Positions 7,436-29,781 of a stretch of 64,000 nt of DNA are shown here, piece by piece. The stretch comes from Paenibacillus stellifer (GTDB lineage: Bacteria > Bacillota > Bacilli > Paenibacillales > Paenibacillaceae). Within the stretch, counting starts at the first letter, position 1; each line of letters starts with the position of its first letter. A program made the position numbers and the translations under genes. The stretch spans positions 526,501 through 590,500 of the forward strand of contig NZ_CP009286.1 of the NCBI RefSeq assembly GCF_000758685.1, given 5' to 3'. Below the pieces are notes generated by a model. That model made no database searches and was not told the DNA's origin. It saw nothing but the letters and a program-made list of their open reading frames with translations.

Positions 7436-7562
7436 GAGGACCCCTCCTTTCTAACCAAGGATTCCTTTCCTTGCTTCAAATCTTAAATGATCTGTGGTAC
7501 ATTTGAAAAGTAGTTACATTAAAGTGCAATAGTTTCAAAAAATGAACTATGGAGTGGTCAAA

Positions 7563-13005: not shown

Positions 13006-13125
13006 TATAAACGCAAAACAGTCGAAAGGCTGCGACGCAAAGCCCAGGAGTCTACCGCGTGTACACAACGCCATGATCGTCCGGCCGCCATGAAAGCCAG
13101 TCAAGGCTATCAAGGCGGCCTTTTT
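13006..13125 (+). promoter_or_regulatory. probable cyclic-di-GMP-I (GEMM) riboswitch with terminator
   Basis: The core reads AAACGCAAAAC, a short stem closed by a GAAA tetraloop (AGTC GAAA GGCT), then GACGCAAAGCC at about 13034-13044 and GGAGTCTACCG, i.e. the GEMM-I order including the tetraloop and receptor. Immediately after it GGCCGCC (13083-13089) can pair with GGCGGCC (13114-13120) followed by 5 T, a terminator whose 5' arm overlaps the aptamer's 3' part. It sits 65 bases upstream of the surface-protein gene. The outer P1 helix is not obvious to me by eye. Confidence 0.7.
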
Positions 13126-13189
13126 GCTGTTATTATAAGCCGCTGCAGCCATTGACCTTAATCGACAATTTTAGAGGTGAGGGCAATTG

Positions 13190-15109
13190 ATGAAGAATTT
13201 GAAATCATGGGTATCCTTGATGCTGACCGGGATGATCTTGGTATGGTGCACTATTGGGGTTGCTGGCAAGGCTGACGGAGCAGCGGCCGGGTTCTTAGGG
13301 ACAGCGGGATATTATAATGCTTTCATACTAGGCAATTTTACGCAGTCTTTCACGGATACGGAAGGAAGATTAGCTGCCGGAGGAAATGTTACGCTAAACG
13401 GTTATTCTGTCGGGTTTAAGCTTAGCAGCAGCGAGCGCGAAAAGCCCGCCGTTCTTGTGGCTGGCGGAAACTTGACGTTCAATGGCGGCGAGATTCTTGG
13501 AAACGTGGTATATGGAGGAACGGGCCAAATCGGGGCGGAAGTGAATGTCACCGGAACGAAGAGCCAGGGCACGCCTATCGACTTCCCGTCGGAATTTCGT
13601 TATTTGACAGAGACATCGCAGCGATTGGCGGCGTTGGAAGCAAATGGAGTGACCGAGTACCAGTGGGGACGGTTGACACTCACAGGAAAAGATAAGCGGA
13701 TGAACATCTTCTCCGTCTCAGGCAGCGATCTGTCCCAGGCCAATACGCTGGTGATCGATGCTCCAGCCGAATCGACAGTAATCGTTAATGTTGACGGCGC
13801 CTCGAATCAGCTTCAGTATTTTGGTTTCTCGTTGCAGGGTATTTCACGCGAGCATGTTCTGCTCAATTACAGCCAGGCTTCCGAGCTTGTCATTAGAGGG
13901 ATCGCAGTGGAAGGCAGTGTACTGGCCCCGGGAGCGGCCGTCAATTTCGACAATGGCCAATTCAACGGCACGCTCATCGCGGCTTCGGTTGTAGGGGGCG
14001 GGCAGTTCAATCATCATCCGTTCACGGGAAGTGATGAGACGCCTGAGCCGAGCCCAAGCCCAAGCCCGAGCCCAAGCCCAAGCGTAAGTCCAAGCCCGAG
14101 TCCGACGCCAACACCGTCGGAGACAGCGAGCCCGACGCCAACACCGTCGGAGACTCCGAGCGAGACGGCAACGCCGACGCCGGAGATACCGAGCGAGACG
14201 GCAACTCCAACACCAGTGACGCCAAGCGAGGCGCCAACGCCGACACCGGATACGCCGATCGAAACCGCAAGTCCGACGCCAGAGGTAACGCCGAGCGAGA
14301 CGGCAACGCCAACGCCGGAGACTCCGAGTGAGACGGCAACGCCGACACCGGAGACTCCGAGCGAGACGGCAACGCCGACGCCAGTGACGCCGAGCGAGCC
14401 GCCAACACCGACGCCAGTGACGCCGAGCGAGACGGCAACACCGACGCCAGTGACGCCGAGCGAGCCGCCAACGCCGACACCAGTGACGCCAAGCGAGCCG
14501 CCAACGCCGACACCAGTGACGCCAAGCGAGCCGCCAACACCGACACCAGTGACGCCGAGCGAGCCGCCAACACCGACGCCAGTGACGCCAAGCGAGGCGC
14601 CAACGCCGACACCGGATACGCCGATCGAAACCGCAAGTCCGACGCCAGAGGTAACGCCGATCGAGAGCCCGACGCCAACGCCGACTTCCGAATCGACAAC
14701 CGTCATCAACGATGAACCCGTTCCTATTGGACCGGTAAATTCGCCTGAAGCATCGGCGGCTCCGTCACCGACGCTATCACCGACGCCGTCGCCTTCTGCC
14801 ACACCTTCGGGTGATGAGGTTACCATTGATGATAATCCTCTTCCGTTAGGCGTGCCTTCGGCAACACCAACTGCAACACCAATAGCGACACCAACGGCGA
14901 CGCCTTCCGCGTCTCCCGCCCCATTGGTAACGCCGAAGCCTGAAGAGCTGGAACTCGGCGATGACCCTGTGCCTCAAGGAGTTCCTGCGCCTGTCGGCAA
15001 GCTGCCTAAGACCGGGGAAGAGAGCCACATGCCTTACTACGCAGGCGGCGCTGCAATCTTGGCGATTGGCTTGCTGTTGAGATTAAAGGGAAGACGCAAA
15101 TTCGAATAA
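13190..15109 (+). CDS. LPxTG-anchored surface protein with choice-of-anchor A domain
   Basis: 639 residues from ATG 13190 (a TTG three bases earlier could also serve; GAGGTGA upstream). Order: signal peptide (1-32); a beta-helix-like choice-of-anchor A domain (~35-280; GFLGTAGYYNAFILGNFTQS, AAGGNVTLNGY, VLVAGGNLTFNGG, GSVLAPGAAVNF); a Pro/Thr/Ser/Glu repeat stalk (~285-505); a second low-complexity stretch; the sorting signal LPKTG, a hydrophobic helix and the tail KGRRKFE. It is thus covalently attached to peptidoglycan by sortase. Likely an adhesin or matrix protein, placed under the upstream riboswitch. Confidence 0.88.
   Translation: MKNLKSWVSLMLTGMILVWCTIGVAGKADGAAAGFLGTAGYYNAFILGNFTQSFTDTEGRLAAGGNVTLNGYSVGFKLSSSEREKPAVLVAGGNLTFNGGEILGNVVYGGTGQIGAEVNVTGTKSQGTPIDFPSEFRYLTETSQRLAALEANGVTEYQWGRLTLTGKDKRMNIFSVSGSDLSQANTLVIDAPAESTVIVNVDGASNQLQYFGFSLQGISREHVLLNYSQASELVIRGIAVEGSVLAPGAAVNFDNGQFNGTLIAASVVGGGQFNHHPFTGSDETPEPSPSPSPSPSPSVSPSPSPTPTPSETASPTPTPSETPSETATPTPEIPSETATPTPVTPSEAPTPTPDTPIETASPTPEVTPSETATPTPETPSETATPTPETPSETATPTPVTPSEPPTPTPVTPSETATPTPVTPSEPPTPTPVTPSEPPTPTPVTPSEPPTPTPVTPSEPPTPTPVTPSEAPTPTPDTPIETASPTPEVTPIESPTPTPTSESTTVINDEPVPIGPVNSPEASAAPSPTLSPTPSPSATPSGDEVTIDDNPLPLGVPSATPTATPIATPTATPSASPAPLVTPKPEELELGDDPVPQGVPAPVGKLPKTGEESHMPYYAGGAAILAIGLLLRLKGRRKFE
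14040..14690 (+). repeat. degenerate coding repeats of the surface-protein stalk
   Basis: Codons alternate SPSP dipeptides (start) and then ~9-residue units of the type TPTPVTPSE with A/P variants, about 18 copies. Copies are nearly identical at DNA level (e.g. ACGCCAGTGACGCCGAGCGA), so the number is probably unstable by slippage or recombination. The complementary strand is also open here, purely as a by-product of the composition. Confidence 0.9.
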
Positions 15110-16295: not shown

Positions 16296-16846
16296 TATAT
16301 GTGGCGGAAATCTCCGTTCTTATGCAACTGAGAACAGCTTCCGCGTATATTTAATCTTTCCCTACCGCCTGCCTGAAATGGCGGTCTCTATACTCCTCTT
16401 TCATTTCCAGCAGCCGTATGGCGATAACAGTTCTGCATCCAAAACGATAAAAGCCCTGCCTCTCTTCTATCCTTGCGGCTCCAATGACCGCTCCAGTGTG
16501 AATCGGAAAATCTACAGCTTCAATATCATCTTACCAGAAGAACCTGCGGTGCTACGGTGAAAGGGCCGGTGAAGCCCCGAGCGCCAAGTTCTTTGAAAAT
16601 TTTAAGGTATATAAAGGTCTATAAGTACATGTAATCAATTCTAAAAAGAACGCCGATATACTTAGTACAACAGTCCTGGGTTATCCTTTAACGAATAATC
16701 CCTTTTGCATGGAAAAATCAAATATTATTATACTATAGCACAAACAGACAGGATTTACAAATGCAATATTGCTGGACAGTCTGTTCACATCCGAGTTCGT
16801 GGTGCTTTTCTTATCCTCTTTTGCCCCGCGCGATGAATACGCCTCC

Positions 16847-17019: not shown

Positions 17020-17406
17020 ATGAAACGCGCAGATATGCTGCTGATTGCCGTGGTGCTGATCGCCGCGCTCGCTTTTCTGGCTCCGCGTTATTTCGGTAAG
17101 GATGCCGGGGAAGAAGCGGGAAAGAATCTGGTGGCCAATATCACAGTTGACGGCAAGCACTACCGTACGGTCAAGCTGACGAAAGAAGAGCAGACCATCG
17201 ATATCCGGACCGAGAAGGGATATAACATATTGAAGGTTCACGATTACGGCATCGAAATGTATGAAGCGGACTGTCCCGATCAGGTCTGCCTGGGCTTCGG
17301 CTTCATTACCCGGCCCAAGCAGACCATCGTCTGCCTGCCGCATCGGGTTCTGGTAGAGATTGCAAGTTCGACAGGGGAGGATGAGATCGATGGGGTTGTC
17401 CAGTAG
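17020..17406 (+). CDS. eetA: EetA-like NusG domain II protein
   Basis: 128 residues, RBS GGGAG. One N-terminal membrane helix (MLLIAVVLIAALAFLAP) and an extracytoplasmic NusG-II domain with the conserved cysteines of the family (ADCPDQVC and IVCLPHRV). In Listeria a protein of this build (EetA) is required for extracellular electron transfer, next to EetB. Here the same order occurs and the next start overlaps its end by 17 bases. NusG-II proteins occur in other membrane redox/flavin contexts, so the name rests on neighbourhood. Confidence 0.82.
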   Translation: MKRADMLLIAVVLIAALAFLAPRYFGKDAGEEAGKNLVANITVDGKHYRTVKLTKEEQTIDIRTEKGYNILKVHDYGIEMYEADCPDQVCLGFGFITRPKQTIVCLPHRVLVEIASSTGEDEIDGVVQ

Positions 17407-17941
17407 CGAGTCGTCCCGGGCGCTGAAGCGAACGGTAATCGTCGCGATTTTTTCGGCGGTGGCGGTAGTGCTCGGGATTTTGGAAGCCCAGCTTCCCTTG
17501 TCGGCGATGGGACTTATGCCCGGGGCCAAGCTCGGGTTCGCCAATATCATGATTTTGACATGCATTTATTTTCTCAGGGGACGCGATGCCTTCGTGCTGG
17601 TCATCCTGAAGACCATACTGACGGCGTTCATCCTCGGTACGTTCTCCAGCCTGCTGTTCAGCCTGTTCGGCTCATTGTTCAGCTTCGCGGTCATGTTCCT
17701 TCTAATGAAGGGCGGAAAGAACCGCCTGAGTCTGATCGGGGTCAGTATCGCAGGCAGCATCGCCCATAACTTCGGACAACTGGTCGCGGCTTCCATCGTC
17801 ATGGGAACGACCAGCATTATGTATTATTTGCCGATCCTTCTGGTGACAGGCATTGTGACCGGTATTGCCGTCGGCTACTCGGTGCGGTATTTGGTAAACG
17901 CGCTGACAAAAATATCGATCTTTGAGGACTTTTTACGATAA
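17390..17941 (+). CDS. eetB: EetB-like Gx transporter (ECF substrate-binding-type subunit)
   Basis: 183 residues from ATG 17390, with AGGATGA upstream; the longer frame starts inside eetA. About six membrane helices; start RTVIVAIFSAVAVVLGILEAQ and the motif MGLMPGAKLGFANIM typical of the Gx/heptaprenyl-diphosphate-synthase-component-I annotation. Listeria EetB is related to ECF substrate-binding subunits and takes part in moving flavin out of the cytosol. The three genes after it are the rest of an ECF complex. Confidence 0.82.
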   Translation: MGLSSSESSRALKRTVIVAIFSAVAVVLGILEAQLPLSAMGLMPGAKLGFANIMILTCIYFLRGRDAFVLVILKTILTAFILGTFSSLLFSLFGSLFSFAVMFLLMKGGKNRLSLIGVSIAGSIAHNFGQLVAASIVMGTTSIMYYLPILLVTGIVTGIAVGYSVRYLVNALTKISIFEDFLR

Positions 17942-17975
17942 GCGGAAGGCAAATGGCCGCAGGAGGTGAGACAGC

Positions 17976-18845
17976 ATGAACGGGAAAGACGAACAGCGGC
18001 GTGCGGCGGACCGGGGCACGGATGCCGTGACGATGGAGGAAGTATCCTTCGGCTACGAGCCGGAGCATCCCATATTGCAGAGCATTACGCTCGGCATCCC
18101 TCAGGGACAGTGGGTCAGCCTTGTCGGTCCCAGCGGTTCGGGCAAGTCGACATTGGTGAAGCTTCTGAATGCGCTGATTCTCAAAAGCGCAGGAGAAATC
18201 ACGGTCTGCGGCATGACGCTGAATGATGAGAACGTCACGGAGATCCGCCGGAATATCGGCATGGTCTTCCAGAACCCCGACAATCAGTTCGTCGGAGAGA
18301 CGGTGGAGGACGACATTCTGTTCGGCCTGGAGGGACTCTGCCTGCCGCGCGAGGAGATGGAGCGCAGGCTTCATCTGTATGCCGATAAGCTCGGTGTCAC
18401 CGGCCTCCTGCGGAAGCATCCCGGAGAGTTGTCCGGCGGGCAGAAGCAGCGGGTCGCCATCACATCCATTCTGGCTATGGAGCCCGGCGTCGTCATCTTT
18501 GACGAGGCCTCTTCCATGTTGGACGAGGAGAGCCGGAATGGATTGTTGGACATTCTGCGGGACATGCATGCAGAGGGCTCCTATACGATCTTGATGATTA
18601 CGCATGACGCCGACGAAATACTGTCATCGGAGCGGGTGCTGGCCCTCAGCAATGGAAAGCTGGCCCTGGATATGACACCGGACGAGCTGTTCCGGAACGA
18701 GGCGCTGCTGGAGAAGTGCCGGCTGCATGCTCCCTATGCCTGGGAGCTCGGCCGCGAGCTTGCGGCCAGGGGGCTTCCGGTCGGCACTCCCTCCAGCGAA
18801 AAGGAGCTTGTGAACACGTTATGGCCATTGAACTTCGGCAAGTAA
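17976..18845 (+). CDS. ecfA: ECF transporter ATPase A
   Basis: 289 residues, RBS GGAGGTGA. ABC ATPase with Walker A GPSGSGKST (51-59), Q-loop MVFQNPDNQ, signature LSGGQ and Walker B VVIFDEAS, then the H-loop ITHD; MVFQNPDNQFVG and the C-terminal extension are typical of ECF-type ATPases. It pairs with the next protein to drive the EcfT/EetB membrane part. The Walker B ends in EAS rather than the usual EAT/EPT. 34 bases after eetB. Confidence 0.92.
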   Translation: MNGKDEQRRAADRGTDAVTMEEVSFGYEPEHPILQSITLGIPQGQWVSLVGPSGSGKSTLVKLLNALILKSAGEITVCGMTLNDENVTEIRRNIGMVFQNPDNQFVGETVEDDILFGLEGLCLPREEMERRLHLYADKLGVTGLLRKHPGELSGGQKQRVAITSILAMEPGVVIFDEASSMLDEESRNGLLDILRDMHAEGSYTILMITHDADEILSSERVLALSNGKLALDMTPDELFRNEALLEKCRLHAPYAWELGRELAARGLPVGTPSSEKELVNTLWPLNFGK

Positions 18846-19708
18846 GCTATACCTACTCGGAGCGCAGCCTGTGGAGGCAAACGGTGCTGCGCGAGATCGA
18901 CTTTGATGCTCCGGCGGGCCAGGTGGTGGGAATCGCCGGGGCGACGGGCTCCGGCAAGTCGACCCTGCTGCAATTATTCAACGGTCTGCTCCGGCCCACG
19001 CAGGGGACGGTGTCCGTTCTGGACGTCACTTTTCGCCCCGGCGAGAAGCCTCCCCGGCTGCTTCCGCTCAGGCGGAGAGTCGGGCTAGTCTTCCAGTTCC
19101 CGGAGCAGCAGATGTTCGCCGAGACGCTGGAGAAGGATTTGATGTTCGGGCCGCTTAACTTCGGCATGAGTCCGGAGGAGGCGCGGGAGCGGGCCTGCAA
19201 GGCGATGGAGGATATGGGGCTCGATCTGGAGCTGCTCACGCGCAACCCGTTCCGGTTAAGCGGCGGGCAGATGCGCAAGGCGGCCATCGCTTCGGTGCTG
19301 GCGGCGGACCCGGAGATTCTCGTTCTGGACGAGCCGACGGCGTCGCTTGATCCGGTCAGCCGCCGGGAGCTGATCGGCCTCCTGAACCGGCTGTGCCGGG
19401 AACGCGGCCGGACTGTCCTCGTCGTCACGCACCGGATGGACGAGCTTCTGCCATATGCGGACCGCTGGCTCGTGCTGAATCAGGGCCGCGCGGTGTTTCA
19501 GGGCGGCGTCCGGGAGCTGGCGCGGAATCCCGGCCTCCTGGCGGACTGCGGCTTGGCCGTGCCGGACTCTCTGCGGTATTGGCGGGCGGTGGCCGACCGG
19601 CTCGGCCTTAAGGACGATGAAGAGCCGAGACTGTCGGCTGGCGAATTGGCGGACTTCATCCAGGAACGCGGCGGCCTCGAAGGCCGGCGGGAAGGAGGCC
19701 GGCCATGA
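18821..19708 (+). CDS. ECF transporter ATPase A'
   Basis: 295 residues from ATG 18821, overlapping ecfA by 25 bases (AAGGAG at 18801-18806; the longer frame belongs to the previous gene). Walker A GATGSGKST (~40-48), Q-loop LVFQFPEQQMF as in EcfA', signature LSGGQ, Walker B ILVLDEPTASLDP, H-loop VTHRMDE. It forms the ATPase heterodimer with the previous product. Overlaps the EcfT gene by ATGA. Confidence 0.92.
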   Translation: MAIELRQVSYTYSERSLWRQTVLREIDFDAPAGQVVGIAGATGSGKSTLLQLFNGLLRPTQGTVSVLDVTFRPGEKPPRLLPLRRRVGLVFQFPEQQMFAETLEKDLMFGPLNFGMSPEEARERACKAMEDMGLDLELLTRNPFRLSGGQMRKAAIASVLAADPEILVLDEPTASLDPVSRRELIGLLNRLCRERGRTVLVVTHRMDELLPYADRWLVLNQGRAVFQGGVRELARNPGLLADCGLAVPDSLRYWRAVADRLGLKDDEEPRLSAGELADFIQERGGLEGRREGGRP

Positions 19709-20496
19709 ATGAACGCCTGCTGCTGGGAAGAACGATCGAGACCGGCTCCTGGGTGCATCGCCTGGACCCGAGGTCGAAGCTGATCGGGATGCTGCTCTAT
19801 GCAGCCGCCATCCTGCTCGCGAGGTCGTGGGCAGCGATGGCCGTGCTGGCGATCATGTCGCTGATGATCGCGGTGTCCACCCGGATTCCGCTGAAATATT
19901 ACCTCAGAGCGGCCAAGTCGCTGAGGTATTTGATGCTGTTTATTTTTATCGTGCAGCTGCTGTCGGTTAAGGGAGGGCGAGTCTGGCTGAGCCTGGGCTC
20001 CTTCCAGCTCTATGAGGACGGCTTCCGGCTCGGGGCGTTCGCGGTGATCCGCACGTTCCTGCTCGTCTCCTTTACCGCTATGCTCACGTTCACAACGACT
20101 CCCGCGAGGCTGAATCAGGGGCTGGAGGGCATTCTGTCGCCGCTGAAGCGGGCCGGGCTGTCGCCGGGACGTTTTACGCTGATGATCAGTCTGGCGCTTC
20201 GCTTTATTCCGACGATACTGGATGAGGCCCAGATTGTGCTGAAAGCCCAGGCTTCACGGGGAGCCGATATCAGCGAGCTGCCGCTGAAGGAGAAAGGCCG
20301 CATGCTCGTAACCCTGCTCGTTCCCGTTATCGTAGGGGCGTTCCGGCGGGCGCAGGATCTGGTCTATTCCATGGAAGCCCGCGGCTTCCGCATGGAGGCC
20401 CCGCGTACCCGGTATCACCGCTTGAGGTGGGGGGCGGCTGATACTTGTTTTATCGCTCTGTTCGTTCTGCTGGCTGCGGCTTCGGCTGTTCTGTAG
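19705..20496 (+). CDS. EcfT-family transmembrane subunit (FmnA/EcfT-like)
   Basis: 263 residues with 4-6 membrane helices. The two coupling motifs of EcfT are visible, ASRGAD (~residue 178) and EARGF (~223), which contact the two ATPases. Start LLLGRTIETGSWVHRLDPRSKLI is typical. In Listeria, FmnA is an EcfT relative used with EetB for flavin export; position suggests this is its counterpart. The ATGA overlap with the ATPase gene implies fixed stoichiometry. Confidence 0.88.
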   Translation: MNERLLLGRTIETGSWVHRLDPRSKLIGMLLYAAAILLARSWAAMAVLAIMSLMIAVSTRIPLKYYLRAAKSLRYLMLFIFIVQLLSVKGGRVWLSLGSFQLYEDGFRLGAFAVIRTFLLVSFTAMLTFTTTPARLNQGLEGILSPLKRAGLSPGRFTLMISLALRFIPTILDEAQIVLKAQASRGADISELPLKEKGRMLVTLLVPVIVGAFRRAQDLVYSMEARGFRMEAPRTRYHRLRWGAADTCFIALFVLLAAASAVL

Positions 20497-20541
20497 CATA
20501 AGCGGGACCGGGAGAAGAGTTACACTTAGGGGGAAGCAAGA

Positions 20542-22491
20542 ATGACGCGATATTTTAACGGTAAGGAAGTTGAACTGCTGGCTCCGGCCGGCACGTTCGA
20601 GATTTTTCAGGAAGTGGTGCGCTCCGGCTGCGATGCGGTGTATTTGGGCGGGCCTGTGCTGAATATGAGAATGATGCGCAAGGGCTATAATCTGTCGCGC
20701 GAGGAGCTGGCGGAGGCGATCCAGATCGCCCGGTCGCTGGACAAGAAGCTGTATGTGACCGTCAACAATCTTCTCAGCGAGCAGGAACTGGAGGAGGCGC
20801 GTGACTACCTCGGCTTCCTGGATGAGATCCGCCCGGATGCGCTGATTGTGCAGGATATGGCGGTCCCTGCTCTGGTCCGGGAAATGGGTCTCGGCCTGCA
20901 GCTGCATGCATCGGTTATGATGAACACGCATAATCTCGAAATGGTTCACGCGCTCCGGGATCTCGGCGTAAGCCGAGTCGTCACGTCACGCGAGATGGAT
21001 CTGCAGACCGCGAAGCATCTGGGGCGGGAGAGCGGAATGGAGCTGGAATATTTCGTTCACGGCGATATGTGCTCCGTTCACGGGGCGAACTGCTACTTCA
21101 GCTCACAGGTGTTCGGCATGAGCAGCAACCGGGGTAAATGCATGAAGCCCTGCCGCTGGGATTACCGGATCAAAAAGGACGGTTACATTTATCCGGCAGA
21201 ATATCCGCTGGCGGTCAAGGACATGTACATGTATGAGCATCTGCCGGAATTGATCGAATCGGGCATTACCTCATTCAAAATCGAGGGACGGATGCGCGAC
21301 AAGGACTTCATCACGATGATCGTGAACAGCTACGGCGACGCATTGGACCGGTATATCGACGATCCGGTCGGCTTTGAGCGGGAAGTGGACGCCAAGCTGC
21401 TGTATAAGAACCGCAAGCGCGATTTCTCCACCGCTTATGCGTTCGGCAAGCCGGGGCTGCGCAACATCAACCGGCGCTATGAAGGCACCGGCAAATTCTA
21501 CAGCACGGGCAAGGTGTTCAGCACACCGACGGCGGAGCGGGAGCTCTCGGAGGACCGTGTCCTTAAGCTGAAGGAACGGCTGGCGGCGGAGCTTCGGCCG
21601 GAACGCACGCCTGATGCCGCAGGGATTGCGGTTCGCGTCAATAACATGGCTCAGGCCAGAGCCGCGCTTGAGGAGCGGGTGGAGCATCTGTATTTGTCCG
21701 GCGACGTCTACGAGCCCGACCGTCCGTTCACGAAGCGCGATATCCTGGAACTGGCCCGGATCAAGGGAGAGACGAAGCTGATCCTGGCGCTGCCGCGCAT
21801 GATGACGGAGCTGCATTTCGACCAGTACGACCAGCTGCTGATTCACGGCGAACGACTGCCGATCGACGGTCTGCTTGTCACGAATCTGGGAGCTGTACGG
21901 CGATACAGCGGCACCGGTTATGAGCTGATTGGCGATACGAGCCTCAACATCTACAACACACTGGCCGCCAAGACTTACGCGCGGATGGGCCTGAAGCGGT
22001 TGACGGTATCGTCCGAGATGACGCTGGACCATTTTGCCGGCTTCGCTTCCAAAAGTGATCTTCCGGTGGAAATGGTGGTCCACGGAACACCGGCGCTGAT
22101 GTATATGGAGCATGACCTGTTCGAGAACACCGAAGTGATGGAGCCTGTCGGCGAGGAAGACAACCGGTATGTGAGCAATGAGGTGCTGGTGCTGATGACC
22201 GACAAGGGCGAGAATCCGGTATACCGCGACCAGCACGGGCGGAGCCATCTGCTGTTCGCCAAGGAGCTGTGTTACCTGCCGATGGTGCGGGAGTTGGCCC
22301 TGGCAGGGATTTCGAGCTTCCGGATTGAAGGCCAGACCTATACGCCGGAGCGGCTTCGCGAGGTTATCAGGGCTTACCGGGACGCGCTGAGCGGCAACGG
22401 GGCGGCTGGTGAAACATCGGAGCAAGAGCTTGTGAACAGCCTGACGCCGGTTTATGCGGGGTATACACTGGGCTCGCTGCAATTTAATTAA
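20542..22491 (+). CDS. U32 family (peptidase-like) iron-sulfur protein
   Basis: 649 residues, RBS GGGGGAAG. Start VELLAPAGTFEIFQEVVRSGCDAVYLGG is the U32 signature. Four cysteines (177, 184, 200, 204; CSVHGANC ... GKCMKPC) fit the Fe-S site found in U32 proteins of tRNA/rRNA or ubiquinone hydroxylation (TrhP, RlhA, UbiU/V). The ~320-residue C-terminal part makes this a long member. 45 bases after the ECF operon, so probably cotranscribed. The role here is unknown; RNA modification is the default, quinone-related hydroxylation an attractive alternative. Confidence 0.85.
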   Translation: MTRYFNGKEVELLAPAGTFEIFQEVVRSGCDAVYLGGPVLNMRMMRKGYNLSREELAEAIQIARSLDKKLYVTVNNLLSEQELEEARDYLGFLDEIRPDALIVQDMAVPALVREMGLGLQLHASVMMNTHNLEMVHALRDLGVSRVVTSREMDLQTAKHLGRESGMELEYFVHGDMCSVHGANCYFSSQVFGMSSNRGKCMKPCRWDYRIKKDGYIYPAEYPLAVKDMYMYEHLPELIESGITSFKIEGRMRDKDFITMIVNSYGDALDRYIDDPVGFEREVDAKLLYKNRKRDFSTAYAFGKPGLRNINRRYEGTGKFYSTGKVFSTPTAERELSEDRVLKLKERLAAELRPERTPDAAGIAVRVNNMAQARAALEERVEHLYLSGDVYEPDRPFTKRDILELARIKGETKLILALPRMMTELHFDQYDQLLIHGERLPIDGLLVTNLGAVRRYSGTGYELIGDTSLNIYNTLAAKTYARMGLKRLTVSSEMTLDHFAGFASKSDLPVEMVVHGTPALMYMEHDLFENTEVMEPVGEEDNRYVSNEVLVLMTDKGENPVYRDQHGRSHLLFAKELCYLPMVRELALAGISSFRIEGQTYTPERLREVIRAYRDALSGNGAAGETSEQELVNSLTPVYAGYTLGSLQFN

Positions 22492-22670
22492 TGTTTTAAA
22501 ATATAAGACTTTATAAGTTGTTGCTTACAACAGGTCTTCTATTTCTCGGTAAAGCATGGCGTCTAAGGACGCCGTCAGGTGTTTATCCTTGAATAATTGA
22601 TATAGTCGAAAAAACAGGATCGTTTGGACGATCGGAAGTTACTTTTTTCACAAGAAAAGGGGGAAACCGG

Positions 22671-23960
22671 ATGGACGGCCAGTTTATTGGCAGAGAGGCG
22701 GTTGCGGCCAAGCGCAAACAGTATTTCTACCCTTGTACACAGCATTTTTACCGGGATGCGCCGCAATTGGTCCGCGGCAGTATGCAGCATGTGTATGATG
22801 AGAACGGGAAGAAGTACACCGATTTCTTCGCAGGGGTATCGGTGGTGGCCTGCGGCCACTGCAACCCGGCCATTACGGAGCGGACGATCGAGCAGCTGCG
22901 CCGGCTGCAGCATACGACGACGGTATATTTGACGGAGCCGAGCGTGCTGCTGGCGGAGCGGCTGGAGTCTGTGCTGCCGGGGAACCTGAGACGCACGTTC
23001 TTCGTGAACAGCGGCTCGGAAGCGAATGAAGGGGCGCTGTTGCTAGCCCGGCTGCATACCGGCCGCAAGGGCTTCATCGCGCTGGAGAGCGGGCTGCACG
23101 GCCGGACGAATCTGACGATGAGCGTAACCGGATTGTCCATGTGGCGGACCGACAAGTATCTGGACGAGGATGTTGCGTTCATCCGGCGTCCGTTCGATCC
23201 GGAGCTGACTTTGGCGGAAGCGTCGGAGATTTCGCTTGCCGACCTGAAGGCGGTTCTCGCGGCCAAAGGCGATACTATCGCCGCCCTGATCGCGGAGCCG
23301 ATCCAGGGCAACGGCGGCATGATCATGCCGGAACCCGGCTATTTCCGCGCCGTGAAGGAGTTGCTGGAGCTGCATGGAATCCTGCTGATCGCCGACGAGA
23401 TCCAGACCGGCTTCGGACGGACGGGAGCCATGTTCGCCATGGAGCATTTCGGCGTCGTGCCGGATATCGTCACCATGGCCAAAGCGCTCGGCAACGGCGT
23501 GCCGGTTGCCGCCTTCGCGGCGGGCGACGAGATCGCCGCCTCGCTGAATACGCCGTCCGCCTCCACGTTCGGCGGCAATCCGGTCTCCGCGGCGACGGCG
23601 CTCGCCGTGCTCGATTATATCGAAGCCGAGCGGCTGCCTGAGCGCGCCGCCTTGCTGGGAGCCCGGCTGAAGGCAGGGCTCCGGGAGCTGCAGGACCGTT
23701 ACCCGGCGCTTGTCGCCGATGTGAGAGGAACGGGACTGATGCTGGGCATGGAGCTTCGCGGGGCAGGTTCCGCAGAGAGCGCGGCGCTGACGGACGATGT
23801 GCTTGAAGATCTGAAGAACCAGGCCTACTTGGTCGGGAAGAACGGCGTGGGCCGAAATGTGTTGGCCTTCCAGCCGCCTCTTGTTATTATGGAAGAAGAT
23901 ATCGACGGTCTCCTTGCAGCATTGGACAGCACGTTGGCGCGGCTTGGGGCGCAGGTGTGA
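22671..23960 (+). CDS. class III (AGXT2-like) PLP aminotransferase
   Basis: 429 residues. Fold-type I class III features: [18 protein letters not shown], catalytic-face [12 protein letters not shown] (Asp242) and the PLP lysine at Lys271 in [10 protein letters not shown]. The start [27 protein letters not shown] is like alanine-glyoxylate/aminobutyrate transaminases. Substrate cannot be told. It lies between the U32 gene and the prenyltransferase gene, with 179 bases before and 163 after (the latter with a GGACT triple repeat). Confidence 0.85.
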
Positions 23961-24123
23961 TCAATCCCCTGACCTCTGAGCCTGGCCCTGGACTGGACTG
24001 GACTGGACGCGCACTCCGTCCTTTTCCGAAAGGGAATACGAGATGGGCATCCCGGTTCCGGCGGACCAGCGGAGAATGTCCTGCATGTAGACATGGTCAG
24101 CATGAACGGATTGGAGAATTGCT

Positions 24124-25011
24124 ATGGTTATTCTGAATGCCTTTAAAATTGCGGGGCACAAGCTAAAAATGTTCAGCGAGCTCGTTATGTTCTCGCATAC
24201 GCTGTTCTCGCTGCCCTTTGCCGTTATTTCAATGGTATGGGCGGCGGGGGGCTGGCCCTCGGGGCGGATTATGCTGTGGGGGCTGATTGCCCTTATCGGG
24301 GCGCGCAACGGCGCCAACGCCTTCAACCGGCTGGCCGACCGTGTCTTCGACGGCCAGAATCCTCGGACGGCGCATCGGCATCTGCCGCAGCGTCTGCTCG
24401 CCGAGAAGGAAGTCGCGATCTTCGTTGTCGTGAACTATTTGATCTTTATATTAGCATCCGGCATGCTGAACCTGCTCTGTCTCGTTCTGTCGCCGGTGGC
24501 CATCTTTCTGATCTCCACCTACTCCTACACGAAGCGCTTCACCTATCTCAGCCATCTGTATCTGGGCTTCGTTATCGCGTCCGCACCGATCGGCGCCTGG
24601 TTCGCGGTAACCGGGAATATTGCCTTCACTCCCTTCGTGATCGGTACGGTCGTCATGCTGTGGATCGCCGGGTTCGATATTATATACGGCACACAGGATA
24701 TCGACTTTGACCGCCGCGCCGGGCTGTGGTCGATTCCCAGCTATTTCGGGCTGGAGAACGCGCTGCGCATTGCCAAGGCACTGCACTTCATTATGATTCT
24801 GCTTCTGCTGTTCCTGTACGTATGGCGCGGGCTGGGCTGGATATATCTCGTCGGAATCGGTATCGCGACCGTGCTGCTCATGACGGAGCATCAAATCATC
24901 AAGCCATCCAACCGGCAACTGATGAAGATCGCCTCCTACAATCTGAACCAGGTGATCAGCATGGTCATTCTGGCCTGTACGCTGACGGATTATTTCTACA
25001 TCACCAATTAG
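24124..25011 (+). CDS. UbiA-family prenyltransferase (DmkA-like role)
   Basis: 295 residues, RBS GGAGAA. Multi-pass membrane enzyme with both Asp-rich motifs: NAFNRLADRVFDGQNPRTAHR (first Mg-diphosphate site) and YGTQDIDFDRRAGLWS (second; the usual YACQD is YGTQD). UbiA-type enzymes join a prenyl tail to an aromatic acid; in the Listeria EET locus such an enzyme (DmkA) makes the demethylmenaquinone that NDH-2 uses. Here the polyprenyl synthase genes face it 0.5 kb away. A housekeeping quinone prenyltransferase is the alternative. Confidence 0.85.
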   Translation: MVILNAFKIAGHKLKMFSELVMFSHTLFSLPFAVISMVWAAGGWPSGRIMLWGLIALIGARNGANAFNRLADRVFDGQNPRTAHRHLPQRLLAEKEVAIFVVVNYLIFILASGMLNLLCLVLSPVAIFLISTYSYTKRFTYLSHLYLGFVIASAPIGAWFAVTGNIAFTPFVIGTVVMLWIAGFDIIYGTQDIDFDRRAGLWSIPSYFGLENALRIAKALHFIMILLLLFLYVWRGLGWIYLVGIGIATVLLMTEHQIIKPSNRQLMKIASYNLNQVISMVILACTLTDYFYITN

Positions 25012-25024
25012 TGATTAAACGATC

Positions 25025-25064
25025 AGATAAACTACACAGCAATTCTGTAGTTTATCTTTTTTTT
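25025..25064 (+). terminator. terminator after the UbiA gene
   Basis: AGATAAACTACA (25025-25036) pairs perfectly with TGTAGTTTATCT (25046-25057), followed by 7 more T. It also lies at the end of the small minus-strand gene at 25052. Confidence 0.9.
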
Positions 25065-25204
25065 AGTTGAAATATGGACGCGGTATATATAATTACTAAT
25101 GAAGACAATATTGGTAAATTAATACCTTTTGAAACACTTGAGTAAATGCCAATGCTAGCAAGGATAGCAGCCCCTAATGCAATTAATAGACTTTTTCTTC
25201 CCAT
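25052..25204 (-). CDS. 50-residue membrane protein, hypothetical
   Basis: Start ATG 25204 with GGGGTGA upstream. Two hydrophobic helices (LLIALGAAILASIGIY and LPILSSLVIIYTASIF) and the basic tail QLKKR. AT-rich, unlike its neighbours. Whether it is expressed cannot be shown. Confidence 0.4.
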   Translation of the reverse strand: MGRKSLLIALGAAILASIGIYSSVSKGINLPILSSLVIIYTASIFQLKKR

Positions 25205-25429
25205 TCTGAGTTCACCCCAACCTCCATGATATTCCAATTTATTTGTATAATTGCATTTTATTAGAAATAAATCAAGTTAACCTTTCTATAGCTAAAAAAA
25301 TTAAGATTGAATTTTCGTTGCCATATGCTCTGGTAATGGGGGGAGTAAACTCAACTATCTTCCGTTATTGATGTACATCGGCGGGGAATATAAAAGGGTT
25401 TGGAAACGAGATGTGAGGCAGGCTGTATC

Positions 25430-25471
25430 AGAGTAAAAAGAACAGCCGCTTTCCCTGAGAAGGCGGCTGTT
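25430..25471 (-). terminator. terminator of the polyprenyl synthase operon
   Basis: On the minus strand AACAGCCGC (25471-25463) pairs with GCGGCTGTT (25449-25441) and is followed by CTTTTTAC. It lies ~95 bases past the stop at 25564. Otherwise 25205-25560 shows no gene. Confidence 0.75.
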
Positions 25472-25563
25472 AAATGCTTAATAAGGCCAATAGAGCGGAG
25501 CAAATTATTGCCGATGGGTGACGGCATGAGAGATGAGGACAGAAGCTGGAGCGCAGGAGGCGG

Positions 25564-26547
25564 TCAGTTGTCTCTGCCCGAGAAATAGCGGAGCAGCGTC
25601 TCCAGGTCGGCATAGGCCGGGAAGTTCCGGAGCCGCAGCTGCGCGATGTCGGCCGCCTGCTCCAGATAGCGCCGGCAGGTCTCCTCCGTGCGCTCCAGTG
25701 CGCCGCTGCCGGCAATGGCAGCGAGCGCCTCCTCAATCTCTTCCTCGGAGGAATGGGGGCCGACGCGCCGGATGACAGGCGCGAGCTCCGGATTCTGCAG
25801 CGCGTACATAACCGGCAGCGTAACCTGTCCATTCCGGAGATCGCTTCCTGCCGGCTTGCCCAGCGCCTCTGACGACTGGGTGAAGTCCAGCAGGTCGTCC
25901 TGAATCTGAAAGGCGATGCCGAGCGCTTCGCCGAAGACATACAGAGCGTCGGCTGTCTCCTGCGCGCCTTCCGTAGACAGCGCGCCAATCCGCAGGCAGG
26001 TTGCCATCAGCATCGCCGTCTTGTTCAGGGATTTCTCCACGTATTGCTCCAGAGTAAGTCCGTAATCATAGGCATGCTCCATCTGCTGATACTCGCCGAT
26101 GCACAGCTGGGCGGTGGCGACAGCTGAGAGATCATGCACATAACGGTTCTTGTCTCCAGCATGCTGGCTCAGCAGTTCGATGACCCGGGCCGACATATAG
26201 TTGCCGATATGCACGGCGGGAAGAACGCCCGTCCGGGTATGCAGGGCGGGCTGACCCCGCCGCAGCTCGGCCCCGTCGATAATATCGTCGTGAATGAGCG
26301 AGGCGGCATGAATGAATTCCGCCGCAGCCGCAAGCTGGAAGGTGCGCCGTCCGGGCTTCTTCTTGCCAAACCGGCCGCCCACGATAACCATAAGCGGCCG
26401 AAGGCGCTTGCCGCCCGAGCCGATAAGCTCCATAATTCCGGAACGCAGCGGCGAATCGGCCGGCACATCCCGGTCGCTCGTTACCAGCCGCTCGATTTCG
26501 CGGTTGACTTCACTAATCTCGATATGCAAGGCTTCGTGCAGTTTCAT
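25564..26547 (-). CDS. polyprenyl diphosphate synthase, catalytic subunit (HepT/DmkB-like)
   Basis: 327 residues. Trans-prenyltransferase with first Asp-rich motif DDIID (87-91, LIHDDIIDGAELRRG), second DDLLD (217-221, FQIQDDLLDFT), and the IPP-site GSGGKRLRPLM. It extends farnesyl/geranyl diphosphate to a long chain for a quinone tail. In Listeria EET a paralogous synthase (DmkB) serves the dedicated quinone. It follows the small HepS-like gene by 7 bases, fitting a heterodimer; the chain length cannot be read. Confidence 0.9.
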   Translation of the reverse strand: MKLHEALHIEISEVNREIERLVTSDRDVPADSPLRSGIMELIGSGGKRLRPLMVIVGGRFGKKKPGRRTFQLAAAAEFIHAASLIHDDIIDGAELRRGQPALHTRTGVLPAVHIGNYMSARVIELLSQHAGDKNRYVHDLSAVATAQLCIGEYQQMEHAYDYGLTLEQYVEKSLNKTAMLMATCLRIGALSTEGAQETADALYVFGEALGIAFQIQDDLLDFTQSSEALGKPAGSDLRNGQVTLPVMYALQNPELAPVIRRVGPHSSEEEIEEALAAIAGSGALERTEETCRRYLEQAADIAQLRLRNFPAYADLETLLRYFSGRDN

Positions 26548-26554
26548 GTCGGGC

Positions 26555-27016
26555 CTATCCCACCTGTTCTATCGCTTTGGCCGGACGGCCGCTTTTTTTG
26601 AATTCCTTCACCAGATGCTGCCCGATTAATCCGGCGTAGTCTGTCTCCCCATCCTGTCCGCAAGAGCGGGCAATCTGTTGGCGTTTGACATATGGAGCCA
26701 GGAACGCGACAAGATCAAGCTCCCGGTGCTGAATGGCGAACTGGAGATAGAAGCTGTACAGATAATCGCCGTCCAGTACATGCCGGACCAGATCCTGATC
26801 ATCGTGGTTGCATTTCATATGGCTTCGGGCAGCCTCGGTCAAAATAATATAGAGACCGGCAAGACAGACGCGGCGCCGGGCATCCATTTCGAAGCCGTCC
26901 AGAACGGCGAGCAGCCTGTCGCCTTCTTCCGCTTCGAAAGAAAGCTGTATTCCGGCAATAGGCGACAATTCGGCCTGGAGCAGCAGCAGAGCATCTTGAG
27001 TGAGATGTCTGTTCAT
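26555..27016 (-). CDS. short HepS-like partner subunit of the polyprenyl synthase
   Basis: 153 residues from ATG 27016 with AGGAGTGA upstream. The segment LVRHVLDGDYLYSFYLQFAI followed by FLAPYVKRQQIA matches the GDYL/Y-x-x-L helix of heptaprenyl diphosphate synthase component I (HepS), whose usual length is ~250. It lies directly upstream of the catalytic subunit. Because HepS proteins set chain length and are diverse, this assignment by pattern is moderate; the protein would otherwise be hypothetical. Confidence 0.55.
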   Translation of the reverse strand: MNRHLTQDALLLLQAELSPIAGIQLSFEAEEGDRLLAVLDGFEMDARRRVCLAGLYIILTEAARSHMKCNHDDQDLVRHVLDGDYLYSFYLQFAIQHRELDLVAFLAPYVKRQQIARSCGQDGETDYAGLIGQHLVKEFKKSGRPAKAIEQVG

Positions 27017-27097
27017 GAGATTCACTCCTTCTTGTCGGTTTTGCCGGGGGCTGCTCGGTGGAAATGGGTCATCCCTACAAAACCCTTTAAATAAGGA

Positions 27098-27126
27098 GAG
27101 TAATGTGCCTAAGAGACACATTACTC
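27098..27126. terminator. 10-bp perfect hairpin between doxX-like and hepS-like genes
   Basis: GAGTAATGTG (27098-27107) and CACATTACTC (27117-27126), loop of 9. On the minus strand it is followed by TCCTTATTT, so it may end the pplA-ndh2-doxX transcript or act as an operator of the hepS-like promoter. Confidence 0.5.
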
Positions 27127-27206
27127 CAAGAGAACGGCTATTAAGCTTGCCAACCACATCAAAACTACATATTTCTAATATAAGCTTGCTTATTATAAGG
27201 AGCGGA

Positions 27207-27890
27207 TCAGTCGGTGAACAGATACCAGCGCCTTACGAGCGGAATTTTCTTCCACTGCTTCTTGAGCCAAGGCAGGACATAGTAGTCAAGGCTGAACACG
27301 CTGCCGGCTCCGCCGACGCATGCGATTGCCGCACCTACATACCACAGCATTTCCGTGGATGCCATCTTGGTCGTCCAGATCATGACGGCCATCGCGATCG
27401 TTCCCAAAGAGGCGATAGCGGTGAACAGGCCGACGATCAGCATGACGCCAAAGATGATTTCGGCGCATACCATGCCAAGCTGGAACCATTTGGCCAGGAA
27501 CGTGAAGTGGCCGTCCGGTTGATAGAACAGCAGGTCCATGAACCAATTGGTGATGTTGTAGATAAATTTCGGAACAGGAAGCGCGGAGACGGCTTCCGAA
27601 GCCGATTCAACTGCCGAAGCCGCCGATTGGGCGTCAACCGTATCCTTGACGTTGCTTACCGCTTCACTGGCTGCCGAAGTGGCATCCTGAAGATAAGGAG
27701 CCGCCGGAATCAGGAAGATCTTCGTCCAGCCCTGATCAATTATCTTGTTCAGCTTGTCTATACCTTCATACAGCCACATGCCGCCGAGAAGGATGCGAAG
27801 CGGAACGAGCCAGAAGTTGGGCGAACGCTTGGAGAAGTAGCCGCCGACGAAGCTTCTGCGGTTCTCCACATGGAAGAACTCGTGCATCAT
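27207..27890 (-). CDS. DoxX-like membrane protein coupled to NDH-2
   Basis: 227 residues. Four to five membrane helices of the DoxX type (WLVPLRILLGGMWLYEGIDKL; FQLGMVCAEIIFGVMLIVGL; AMAVMIWTTKMAST) with an Ala/Ser/Val-rich insert (~75-110). Its ATG overlaps the NDH-2 stop as ATGA, so it is translated in step with it. The Listeria EET NDH-2 is, as I recall, longer than ordinary NDH-2 by a membrane-embedded C-terminal extension; this gene looks like that extension as a separate protein. DoxX domains are linked to quinone/redox membrane complexes. Confidence 0.75.
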   Translation of the reverse strand: MMHEFFHVENRRSFVGGYFSKRSPNFWLVPLRILLGGMWLYEGIDKLNKIIDQGWTKIFLIPAAPYLQDATSAASEAVSNVKDTVDAQSAASAVESASEAVSALPVPKFIYNITNWFMDLLFYQPDGHFTFLAKWFQLGMVCAEIIFGVMLIVGLFTAIASLGTIAMAVMIWTTKMASTEMLWYVGAAIACVGGAGSVFSLDYYVLPWLKKQWKKIPLVRRWYLFTD

Positions 27891-29089
27891 GTAGGTCCAT
27901 ACTTTGTTGAAGCCGACAACGCCGGCAGGTAGTAAATGTTGATCATATGCTTGGCGAACATTGCCATGAAGCCGGTGAGCATGAACATTTTGTTCGGAAG
28001 ACCCACGTTGGCTACGCCATAGCGGCTGCCGATCGAGACCATCGTTCCGTGGAATGCCGGTTTGTAAGTTTTCTTCGCGGTACCGTTGATATCGGCTACG
28101 ATGTTGCCCGCGATCAATGGAGCGGCCAACTCGGCGTTCTCTACCATCTGGGGAACAGGACGCTCTTCGCCTTCCGCGATATAGAAAATGTTGTCGCCGA
28201 CAACATAGACATTCTTGTGGTCGACGCTTTCCAGATGTCCGTTGGTCACGATCCGCTTGCGGCCCTGCTGCTGGACATCCATAGTGCCTACAAGTTCGGA
28301 GCCTTCGACGCCGGCTGTCCAGACGATGGTCTGGGCTTCCACAACGTTCTTCTCGCCGAGAGCGACGCTGCCTTTGCCAACTTCGGTAATCTTGGCGCTG
28401 GTCACGATTTCCACGTTCAGCTTGCGAAGATGGGCTTCGGCTTTGCGGATCAGCTTATCCGGCAGGATAGGAAGAATCTTCGGCGCCATATCGGCGACGA
28501 TCAGCCGGACTTCTTCCGGATCGATATAGAATTCCTTGCACAGCTCGTCGCGGTACTCGGCCAATTCGCCCACCAGCTCGACGCCTGTGAAGCCTGCGCC
28601 GACAATGACGAAGGTCAGCATGGAACGGCGAACAGCCGGGTTCTTCTCCTTGGCGCCCTGCGTGAACATGTCGCGGATTTGGCGTTTCAGCGCCACCGCG
28701 TCGTCGTAGGACCAGAAGGAGAACGTATTCTCCTCGGCTCCCGGGATGCCGAAGAAGGTCGGCTTGCTGCCTGTGCCGATTACAAGGTAATCATATTCAT
28801 ATACGGCCTTTTCGGATGACAGTTTCTTGCCTTTGAAATCAATATTACTGATTTCGTCAAGCACCACGTCTACCTTCAGCCCCGCAAAGATCTTCTTGAG
28901 ATCGATCTTGATCGAGTCTTCCGGTGCGCGGCTGGCGGAAACCTCATGCAGCTCGGTCAGGAGCGTGTGGTAAGGATTCCGGTCGATCAGCTTGATTTCG
29001 ACATCCTTGTTGTTTTTCAGTTTCTTGGCGAGCTTCTTGGCGGTAAGTACGCCACCGTAACCTCCGCCGAGAACAACGATTCTCTTCAA
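27887..29089 (-). CDS. ndh2: type II NADH:quinone oxidoreductase
   Basis: 400 residues. FAD-binding GxGxxG at the N-terminus (VVLGGGYGGVLTAKKL), NADH-binding VIVGAGFTGVELVGEL (~167-182), FAD-contact VYVVGDNIF (~297) and a C-terminal amphipathic region. It oxidises NADH and reduces membrane quinone without proton pumping. Its place between a flavin lipoprotein gene and quinone-tail genes identifies it as the electron entry point of the EET chain (Ndh2). It starts ~50 bases after the lipoprotein gene ends. Confidence 0.88.
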   Translation of the reverse strand: MKRIVVLGGGYGGVLTAKKLAKKLKNNKDVEIKLIDRNPYHTLLTELHEVSASRAPEDSIKIDLKKIFAGLKVDVVLDEISNIDFKGKKLSSEKAVYEYDYLVIGTGSKPTFFGIPGAEENTFSFWSYDDAVALKRQIRDMFTQGAKEKNPAVRRSMLTFVIVGAGFTGVELVGELAEYRDELCKEFYIDPEEVRLIVADMAPKILPILPDKLIRKAEAHLRKLNVEIVTSAKITEVGKGSVALGEKNVVEAQTIVWTAGVEGSELVGTMDVQQQGRKRIVTNGHLESVDHKNVYVVGDNIFYIAEGEERPVPQMVENAELAAPLIAGNIVADINGTAKKTYKPAFHGTMVSIGSRYGVANVGLPNKMFMLTGFMAMFAKHMINIYYLPALSASTKYGPT

Positions 29090-29137
29090 GAGTTATTCAC
29101 CTCATTCGTCTGATTAACTACAGGGAACTGCTATATT

Positions 29138-29674
29138 TTATTTTGCTCCCTCAAGCGCTTTTTGTACCAAAGTCCAGTATTCGCCGACGCTGATCGATAC
29201 GCCGGAGATGGCATCGGTCTTGCCTTCCGCGTCAAAGGCCGGAGCGGCGCTTTGGTTAGCCATGTAGAATTCCTCGGCTTTGGCGATTTCCTCATGCCAT
29301 TCGCCCTGAGCCTTAGGGTTCTTCTCTTTCATGCCATATTTGCCGGCTTTGGAGTATTCCTGCTTGTCATTGCCGTCTTTGTCAACTCCAGTGAACTTCA
29401 CAGCGGATACGACGCCGTTAGTTACAGTTACTTCAGCTTTAGGTTTCCAGCCAGTTTCGGCGTCCATTTCGCCTTCAGCGGTATATGTGCCGTCTTTGTA
29501 CTGGGCTTCAGCAGCCGGTGCTGCGGAAGCAGGAGCTGCGGATGCCGCAGCGGAAGGAGCGGCAGATACGGATGCGGATGCTGCTGGAGCGTCGGCGTTG
29601 TTGTTATTGCCGCAGCCTGCGGCGAGCAGGCCGAGAAGAATAGCGCTGGATGCGATTGCTGTTGCCTTTTTCAT
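29138..29674 (-). CDS. pplA: PplA-like FMN-binding lipoprotein
   Basis: 178 residues from ATG 29674 (GGAGGTCA upstream; the longer frame has no site). Lipoprotein signal with lipobox LAAGC (Cys21), an Ala/Ser/Pro linker (~22-58) and one FMN_bind domain (~60-178; YKDGTYTAEGEMDAETGWKP, VTNGVVSAVKF). Near the end, residues 154-162 read DAISGVSIS, the place of the ApbE/FmnB flavinylation motif D-x-x-S/T-G-A-T/S; Ser160 is the likely acceptor. Listeria PplA has two FMN domains, this one a single. It is the extracytoplasmic electron carrier. Confidence 0.82.
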   Translation of the reverse strand: MKKATAIASSAILLGLLAAGCGNNNNADAPAASASVSAAPSAAASAAPASAAPAAEAQYKDGTYTAEGEMDAETGWKPKAEVTVTNGVVSAVKFTGVDKDGNDKQEYSKAGKYGMKEKNPKAQGEWHEEIAKAEEFYMANQSAAPAFDAEGKTDAISGVSISVGEYWTLVQKALEGAK

Positions 29675-29711
29675 GAATAATGACCTCCGAAGAAAATTTA
29701 AAAATCTATAT

Positions 29712-29734
29712 ATTAAAATGTAAAACATTTTAAT
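29712..29734. promoter_or_regulatory. AT-rich palindrome just upstream of pplA
   Basis: ATTAAAATG (29712-29720) and CATTTTAAT (29726-29734) are perfect inverted repeats with 5 bases between. They lie between the first FNR-like box and the pplA ribosome binding site, where the promoter should be; a repressor operator is possible. The regulator is unknown. Confidence 0.45.
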
Positions 29735-29744
29735 AGCCCTGTGA

Positions 29745-29760
29745 TGTGACAAATATCACT
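29745..29760. promoter_or_regulatory. FNR/CRP-family box 1 upstream of pplA
   Basis: TGTGACAAATATCACT fits TGTGA-N6-TCAC(A/T), the Bacillus FNR consensus. Its centre is 78 bases before the pplA start codon, a position that allows a -41.5 activator site. Confidence 0.65.
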
Positions 29761-29765
29761 TTTAT

Positions 29766-29781
29766 TGTGAAGGAACTCACA
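29766..29781. promoter_or_regulatory. FNR/CRP-family box 2 upstream of pplA
   Basis: TGTGAAGGAACTCACA is a perfect TGTGA-N6-TCACA palindrome, centred 21 bases (two helical turns) from box 1. Confidence 0.65.

Follow-up and report, generated by a model that had tools for sequence, protein, structure and literature searches.

The stretch of DNA analysed here (the window) comprises 64,000 nucleotides of the Paenibacillus stellifer genome, a single contig of 5.66 Mb (NZ_CP009286.1, positions 526,501 to 590,500). It holds a cluster of thirteen open reading frames (ORFs) that is probably a locus for flavin-based extracellular electron transfer (EET) with a quinone branch of its own. The identity of the quinone that serves EET in Gram-positive bacteria is a fundamental question, and this locus uses a futalosine-type prenyltransferase together with two conserved enzymes of unassigned role, a tandem U32 protein and a class III aminotransferase (AT3) dependent on pyridoxal phosphate (PLP). 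EET in this genus is already in print; what is new with respect to published work is the presence of these two genes between ecfT and ubiA. Should the two enzymes alter the quinone head, both the electron carrier and the hydroxylation, one independent of O2, would be new. Gene content, conservation, co-occurrence, a cysteine motif and paralogy are established directly, and every biochemical step of the electron flow proposed below is one that we infer.

A probable EET locus that recurs through the genus

A sequence-only reading of this DNA had proposed a flavin-based EET locus in a Paenibacillus, which is upheld by protein-family profiles, by gene order and by an FmnB-like ApbE encoded elsewhere in the genome. 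Families were assigned with Pfam and NCBIfam profiles, and the HepS-like protein by profile–profile comparison. The ORFs form two converging groups at window positions 17020–29674, running from eetA to ubiA on the plus strand and from hepT to the pplA-like gene on the minus strand:

17020..17406, +, eetA, NusG domain II protein (PF07009 NusG_II, E = 2.3e-30)
17390..17941, +, eetB, ECF-S-like FAD export subunit (Hpre_diP_synt_I, PF07456, E = 6e-41)
17976..18845, +, ecfA, ECF ATPase (TIGR04520, 302.6 bits, cut-off 315)
18818..19708, +, ecfA′, ECF ATPase (TIGR04521, 303.2 bits, cut-off 330)
19705..20496, +, ecfT, FmnA-like transmembrane subunit (TIGR02454, E = 7.3e-22, 78.2 bits, cut-off 111.8)
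20542..22491, +, tandem U32 protein (PF01136, E = 3.2e-92)
22671..23960, +, AT3, class III PLP aminotransferase (PF00202, E = 3e-101)
24124..25011, +, UbiA, MqnP-type polyprenyltransferase (PF01040, E = 5.5e-53; TIGR01475, 271.8 bits, cut-off 180.8)
25564..26547, −, HepT-like polyprenyl diphosphate synthase, DmkB counterpart (PF00348, E = 1.7e-63; motifs DDIID and DDLLD)
26555..27157, −, HepS-like partner (profile–profile match to housekeeping HepS)
27207..27890, −, DoxX-like C-terminal membrane part of Ndh2, separated by a frameshift (alignment with intact relatives)
27887..29089, −, catalytic part of Ndh2, type II NADH dehydrogenase (PF07992, E = 9.7e-39; PDB 9pxk, E = 9.4e-71)
29138..29674, −, PplA-like lipoprotein, 178 amino acids, one FMN-binding domain with the motif DAISGVSI (2kzx, E = 4.6e-19)

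The start of eetB was set at the ATG at 17390, within the 3′ end of eetA, which it overlaps. Pfam profiles bear out the EetA-like and EetB-like proteins, the UbiA, the polyprenyl synthase and the NDH-2 of the sequence-only reading, and the ORF layout agrees with its two converging groups. For the two ECF ATPases and EcfT that it also named, ECF models are the best NCBIfam matches, though each subunit lies under its strict equivalog cut-off. Most members of that gene list are real; the U32 protein and the class III aminotransferase, inside the same span, had been left out.

For comparison we used a genus set of 37 Paenibacillus genomes (G-numbered; the AT3 search took in 40) and a set of named loci (L-numbered), in which 80 of 242 relatives were kept after named genomes had been scanned with the U32 alignment. 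The same gene order recurs through the genus, and eetA or eetB lies upstream of the U32 gene, on the same strand, in 73 of the 79 named loci whose left flank is 5 kb or longer; the clustering is therefore not due to chance. EetB and locus-type UbiA each occur in 31 of the 37 genus genomes, and both in 30. The closest named relative among the fetched loci is P. sinensis HN-1 (L111), at 100% for EetB, 98% for UbiA and 96% for U32.

A dedicated set of quinone genes

P. stellifer carries futalosine-type quinone genes. Its genome encodes two proteins of PF02621 (the MqnA/MqnD family) and, elsewhere than the locus, a housekeeping row hepS-menG-mqnP-ubiX-mqnA-hepT (mqnA named by PF02621, the others from sequence reading). 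Because this set lies apart, the UbiA and HepT of the locus are paralogues of the copies beside mqnA, and the locus holds more than housekeeping orthologues. A housekeeping-like UbiA is present in all 37 genus genomes, at 37–44% to the locus UbiA, and the locus type (at least 68%) is found additionally in 31, in fragments in G023. In a tree of 44 UbiA rows, a 100/99 branch separates the UbiAs linked to U32 or EET from the housekeeping type: one side holds 26 U32-linked or EET UbiAs (including L038, from the EET locus of G012) and L030 (from G041), and the other holds 14 housekeeping rows with L029, L031 and L065. L030 and L065 sit on long branches.

The locus UbiA carries the aspartate-rich motifs NRLADRVFD and DIIYGTQDIDFD, and it scores under the cut-offs of three MqnP exception models, with which only the locus copy was compared. 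It is likely to be the functional counterpart of DmkA. Two other identities were rejected: paralogy and the separate tree clade rule out the housekeeping MqnP, and a MenA-type DmkA in the locus is ruled out by TIGR00751, which gives no match at the locus UbiA. In the same genome this model matches at 5394319 (81.8 bits, cut-off 102) and at 5392403, both away from the locus; the type with the stronger match also occurs in genomes without EetB. The EET locus of G040, a genome with no PF02621 match, carries in its place a UbiA-family protein that scores 76 bits with the MenA model, under its cut-off, and EET loci may therefore take up whichever prenyltransferase type is at hand.

The HepS-like partner named in the sequence-only reading has no Pfam match but is confirmed by profile–profile comparison with the housekeeping HepS (91% probability, E = 1.2e-6, 64 columns). 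No menG-like ORF was seen in the locus, which, together with the analogy to Listeria, suggests that the product would be a demethylated quinone.

A U32 protein and an aminotransferase that travel together

The U32 chain consists of two homologous halves (hhalign 98.3%, E = 2.6e-14, 234 columns). A CX6CX15CX3C motif occurs in the first half only (C177, C184, C200 and C204), and all four cysteines are present in 28 of 28 aligned sequences. This is the four-cysteine spacing that, according to PMC6747719, recurs in U32 families; the paper also describes a 4Fe–4S cluster in UbiU and UbiV and their role as O2-independent ubiquinone hydroxylases. Judged by sequence, the likeness to UbiU and UbiV offers a lead to function; the UbiV model gives 64.3 bits, short of its cut-off of 275. 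A PDB sequence search with U32 returned nothing significant (8 matches, best E = 0.52). The predicted model has a mean pLDDT of 76.9, and a fold search with it placed other barrel proteins first and the U32 peptidase Mk0906 (5d88) at rank 13 (TM 0.56 by target length), which adds little. A search of 5.8 billion proteins scored 7998, of which 2544 reached E ≤ 1e-60, and the 120 matches listed are nearly all from Paenibacillus or without an organism name.

Full-length U32 of the locus type (at least 59%) is encoded in 30 of the 37 genus genomes, with the G023 copy cut at a contig end; other listed U32 matches in these genomes are at 37% or less. AT3 is found in the same 30, at E ≤ 1e-150 in 28 of them, as two ORFs in G009 and as fragments in G024, and all 30 also have the locus-type UbiA. 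The named loci come from Paenibacillus, Fontibacillus (2), Brevibacillus (2), Oceanirhabdus (2), one Bacillus sp. and one unclassified member of the Paenibacillaceae. AT3 adjoins U32 in all 77 named loci with enough flank. Of 70 loci, 68 have UbiA downstream; the two exceptions are those of Oceanirhabdus, where UbiA is elsewhere in the locus. The Oceanirhabdus loci hold the row ABC ATPase–UbiX–UbiA–UbiD–HepT–Ndh2, the row ApbE–binding protein–U32–AT3, and PplA (L171 by profile, L173 by resemblance), and EetA and EetB gave no matches in them. The UbiD of L171 scores 657 bits with TIGR03701, a menaquinone decarboxylase model whose cut-off is 496 bits.

Of 398 evenly sampled Bacillota genomes, 41 have a U32 relative at E ≤ 1e-100, 38 of them outside the genus. 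Loci with full-length relatives were fetched from 18 of these 38, and AT3 stands beside U32 in 11; the closest of the 18 (G170, 48%) has no AT3 there, and neither have six others (G177 being cut at a contig end). UbiA accompanies the pair in G092, G134 and G370, the last of which (L195) has UbiD–UbiA–UbiX–U32–AT3 with a binding protein and ABC ORFs (permeases by eye). PF02621 gave no match in these three genomes and matched in 10 of the 22 covered by that search; it gave no match in Oceanirhabdus sp. W0125-5 and one of 27 bits in O. seepicola. Because UbiA occurs with U32 and AT3 in W0125-5, G092, G134 and G370 with no match for MqnA or MqnD, the module may be able to operate independently of the futalosine pathway.

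Binding proteins of the NMT1/SsuA type recur beside UbiA or U32–AT3, identified by profile in L171 and by resemblance in L173, L195 and L030, where the ORF that follows the G041 UbiA looks by eye like a binding-protein lipoprotein. These proteins may import an aromatic precursor.

The lipoprotein, its flavin and a split Ndh2

The PplA-like lipoprotein scores 13.7 bits with FMN_bind, whose cut-off is 22 bits, and gives a partial match to the PplA model NF041941 (54 bits, cut-off 325), and structure 2kzx matches it across the FMN domain. That single domain carries SGVS rather than SGAT. According to PMC8906456, the flavinylated Thr of PplA can be replaced by Ser, and the motif would therefore keep its flavin acceptor. 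One-domain forms also occur in G013, G033 and P. sinensis, and two FMN motifs are found in 22 of 25 PplA relatives and in 37 of 49 PplA-like proteins of named loci, two sets that share genomes. Each of the 25 has at least one copy of DA[IVL][ST]GV[ST], and among the 49 the position is Val in 79 of 81 motif copies and Ala in 2.

No ApbE lies within the EET locus of the window. The FmnB-like ApbE is encoded at C1:1517245, and its best PDB match is 7esa (E = 4.3e-67), an entry that the Listeria FmnB paper names once (PMC8906456). All 31 genus genomes with EetB have an ApbE match (G023 as fragments only); of the other six, G007 and G024 have a full ApbE, G005 has a fragment and three have no match. 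Genes of the eet type and ApbE stand together in 35 of the 79 named loci with left flank. Two further regions of the P. stellifer genome hold related genes: a second ApbE beside a small membrane-protein-like ORF, away from the EET locus (L022, C1:2901000-2919000, 8281–9886), and a second ECF ATPase and EcfT-like set whose neighbour is a lipoprotein carrying two FMN domains and DAVSGAT, the usual form of the motif (L019, C1:5422000-5441000, 4151–7789). The same ApbE could act on this lipoprotein as well.

The DoxX-like protein had been read as a gene of its own, which is ruled out by its being one protein with NDH-2 in relatives. The NDH-2 ORF (400 amino acids) and the DoxX-like ORF (227 amino acids), which overlap by 4 bases, are the two parts of an Ndh2 of about 627 amino acids, split by a one-base frameshift that alignment with intact relatives places near window position 27,925. 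In Listeria, Ndh2 has a C-terminal membrane domain. The protein is intact in P. sinensis (627 amino acids) and in most relatives: 50 of the 80 named loci have one full ORF of 623–664 amino acids, 7 have ORFs that come closer than 160 bases to the edge of the fetched sequence, 22 have no Ndh2 in the fetched sequence and one, from Paenibacillus sp. DMB5 (L115), has it in two pieces.

Proposed electron flow and its alternatives

In the flow that we propose, Ndh2 would pass electrons from NADH to a membrane quinone, the quinol would reduce FMN bound to the surface lipoprotein PplA, and PplA or free flavin would hand the electrons on to an extracellular acceptor, for example Fe(III). EetB, described as the FAD export subunit in PMC9973259, would export FAD together with EcfA, EcfA′ and EcfT, and the FmnB-like ApbE encoded elsewhere would attach FMN to PplA. 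The HepT/HepS pair of the locus would make the quinone tail, and the MqnP-type UbiA would attach it, probably to the naphthoate of the futalosine pathway. U32 and AT3 would change or supply the quinone head, with U32 as an O2-independent Fe–S hydroxylase. That these two enzymes act on a quinone is suggested by their sequences and neighbours, and we consider it quite possible, if somewhat short of an even prospect. More speculative, and rather unlikely in its full form, is the proposal that the U32–AT3–UbiA module, with UbiD and UbiX where present, makes an undescribed isoprenoid quinone, its ring hydroxylated without O2 and perhaps aminated, as a dedicated EET carrier. The starting compound of such a module may perhaps be an aromatic acid taken up by the cell: a binding protein and ABC ORFs are present in the loci of Oceanirhabdus and G370, and a similar-looking protein follows the related UbiA in G041. 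Searches limited to an open-access collection listed no paper joining U32 with EET, U32, UbiD or an aminotransferase with quinone pathways, U32 with a class III aminotransferase and UbiA, or MqnP with EET.

Several observations weigh against an EET locus in which U32 and AT3 serve the quinone. G016 has EET genes and UbiA and neither U32 nor AT3, and the EET loci of G004, G041 and G057 (cut at a contig end) show none of U32, AT3 and locus UbiA; the pair is therefore dispensable for some EET loci. UbiU and UbiV are separate proteins, whereas the locus U32 is one chain. As to PplA, the P. stellifer protein is reduced to one domain and has Val where the 2kzx homologue (DAISGAT) has Ala, and 5 of the 49 PplA-like proteins of named loci are without the motif by the pattern used. 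The split of Ndh2 in the P. stellifer assembly tells in the same direction, and further points are taken up with the alternatives that they favour.

The trio may belong to anaerobic quinone synthesis at large, with no special tie to EET, and lie in an EET locus because cells use both in the absence of O2; we hold this to be unlikely, if plausible. It would explain why the trio is set apart in G010, G021 and G030, why it is apart from EET genes, within the stretches read, in L151, L154, L157 and L159, and why G370 keeps its UbiD–UbiA–UbiX–U32–AT3 row without EET genes. Yet G010, G021 and G030 each have an EET locus elsewhere, among the 37 genus genomes the trio occurs without EetB only in the draft G024, and a housekeeping futalosine-type gene set is already present in the P. 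stellifer genome. Alternatively, U32 and AT3 may work outside quinone metabolism, for instance in the hydroxylation of RNA, the function of TrhP and RlhA, and owe their adjacency to history. The best curated match of U32 is indeed TrhP (188.6 bits, cut-off 534), ahead of UbiU (146.6 bits, cut-off 440), and, of the 11 non-genus loci with the pair, just 3 have UbiA in the cluster and 8 have none nearby, so that the pair also exists away from visible quinone genes. Such a role is decidedly unlikely given that, within the genus, U32 and AT3 co-occur exactly with the locus UbiA save in G016, that UbiA joins them in G092 and G134, as do UbiA, UbiD and UbiX together in Oceanirhabdus and G370, and that genus genomes retain other U32 paralogues for RNA work.

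It is quite improbable that the locus is decaying in P. stellifer, as its split Ndh2, one-domain PplA and unlinked ApbE might suggest, and as the two-piece Ndh2 of Paenibacillus sp. DMB5 might also be taken to indicate. The remaining eleven genes of the locus have open frames, and P. sinensis combines an intact Ndh2 with the same one-domain PplA, a form shared by G013 and G033. The 4-base overlap means that both Ndh2 pieces could be made, and the frameshift in the assembly is possibly a sequencing error. The reading that we favour is still that the locus serves flavin-based EET and has a quinone branch of its own.

Neighbouring features

A match to the BsrC small RNA family (RF01410, 64.5 bits) lies at window positions 16434–16521 (+), between an upstream hydrolase ORF and eetA. 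Further upstream, a c-di-GMP-I riboswitch (RF01051, 55.7 bits; 13002–13092, +) is directly 5′ of a 640-amino-acid ORF (13187–15109) whose product has Pro/Ser/Thr-rich repeats, ends in an LPKTGEE-type sequence and resembles surface proteins anchored by sortase. Scans for promoters and terminators stayed close to chance expectation (13 against a mean of 9.0, and 17 against a mean of 14.0).

Comparison with known systems

Paenibacillus sp. Cedars, of the same genus, has an EET operon with ECF genes and dmkA elsewhere, and reduces ferrihydrite and magnetite (PMC10373932). The terms 'U32' and 'futalosine' do not appear in that paper's main text. The locus U32 resembles UbiU and UbiV in its U32 domain, its four-cysteine motif and its UbiA neighbourhood (with UbiD and UbiX in Oceanirhabdus and G370), and differs from them in being a single chain of two halves with the motif in the first only and in scoring under the curated UbiU and UbiV cut-offs. 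Similarly, the locus UbiA is like MqnP in exceeding the TIGR01475 cut-off and in its aspartate-rich motifs, but its clade stands apart from that of the housekeeping MqnP (100/99 split).

The sequence-only reading had equated the parts of this locus with those of the Listeria EET system, an equation that holds only in part. The comparison is based on profiles, PDB matches and papers. Both systems have EetA, EetB, ECF subunits, Ndh2, a PplA-like lipoprotein and a prenyl synthase with a prenyltransferase in one locus, and an FmnB-like ApbE is encoded in the P. stellifer genome, although outside the locus. As in Listeria, prenyltransferase and prenyl synthase are dedicated, here as paralogues of the P. 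stellifer housekeeping pair. The DmkA of Listeria is of the MenA type, whereas the P. stellifer prenyltransferase is of the MqnP type, in a futalosine-type organism whose genome encodes MqnA/MqnD-family proteins. The two also part in the unlinked ApbE, the Ndh2 split in this assembly and a PplA with one domain instead of two flavinylation sites, and the P. stellifer locus adds the HepS-like, U32 and AT3 genes.

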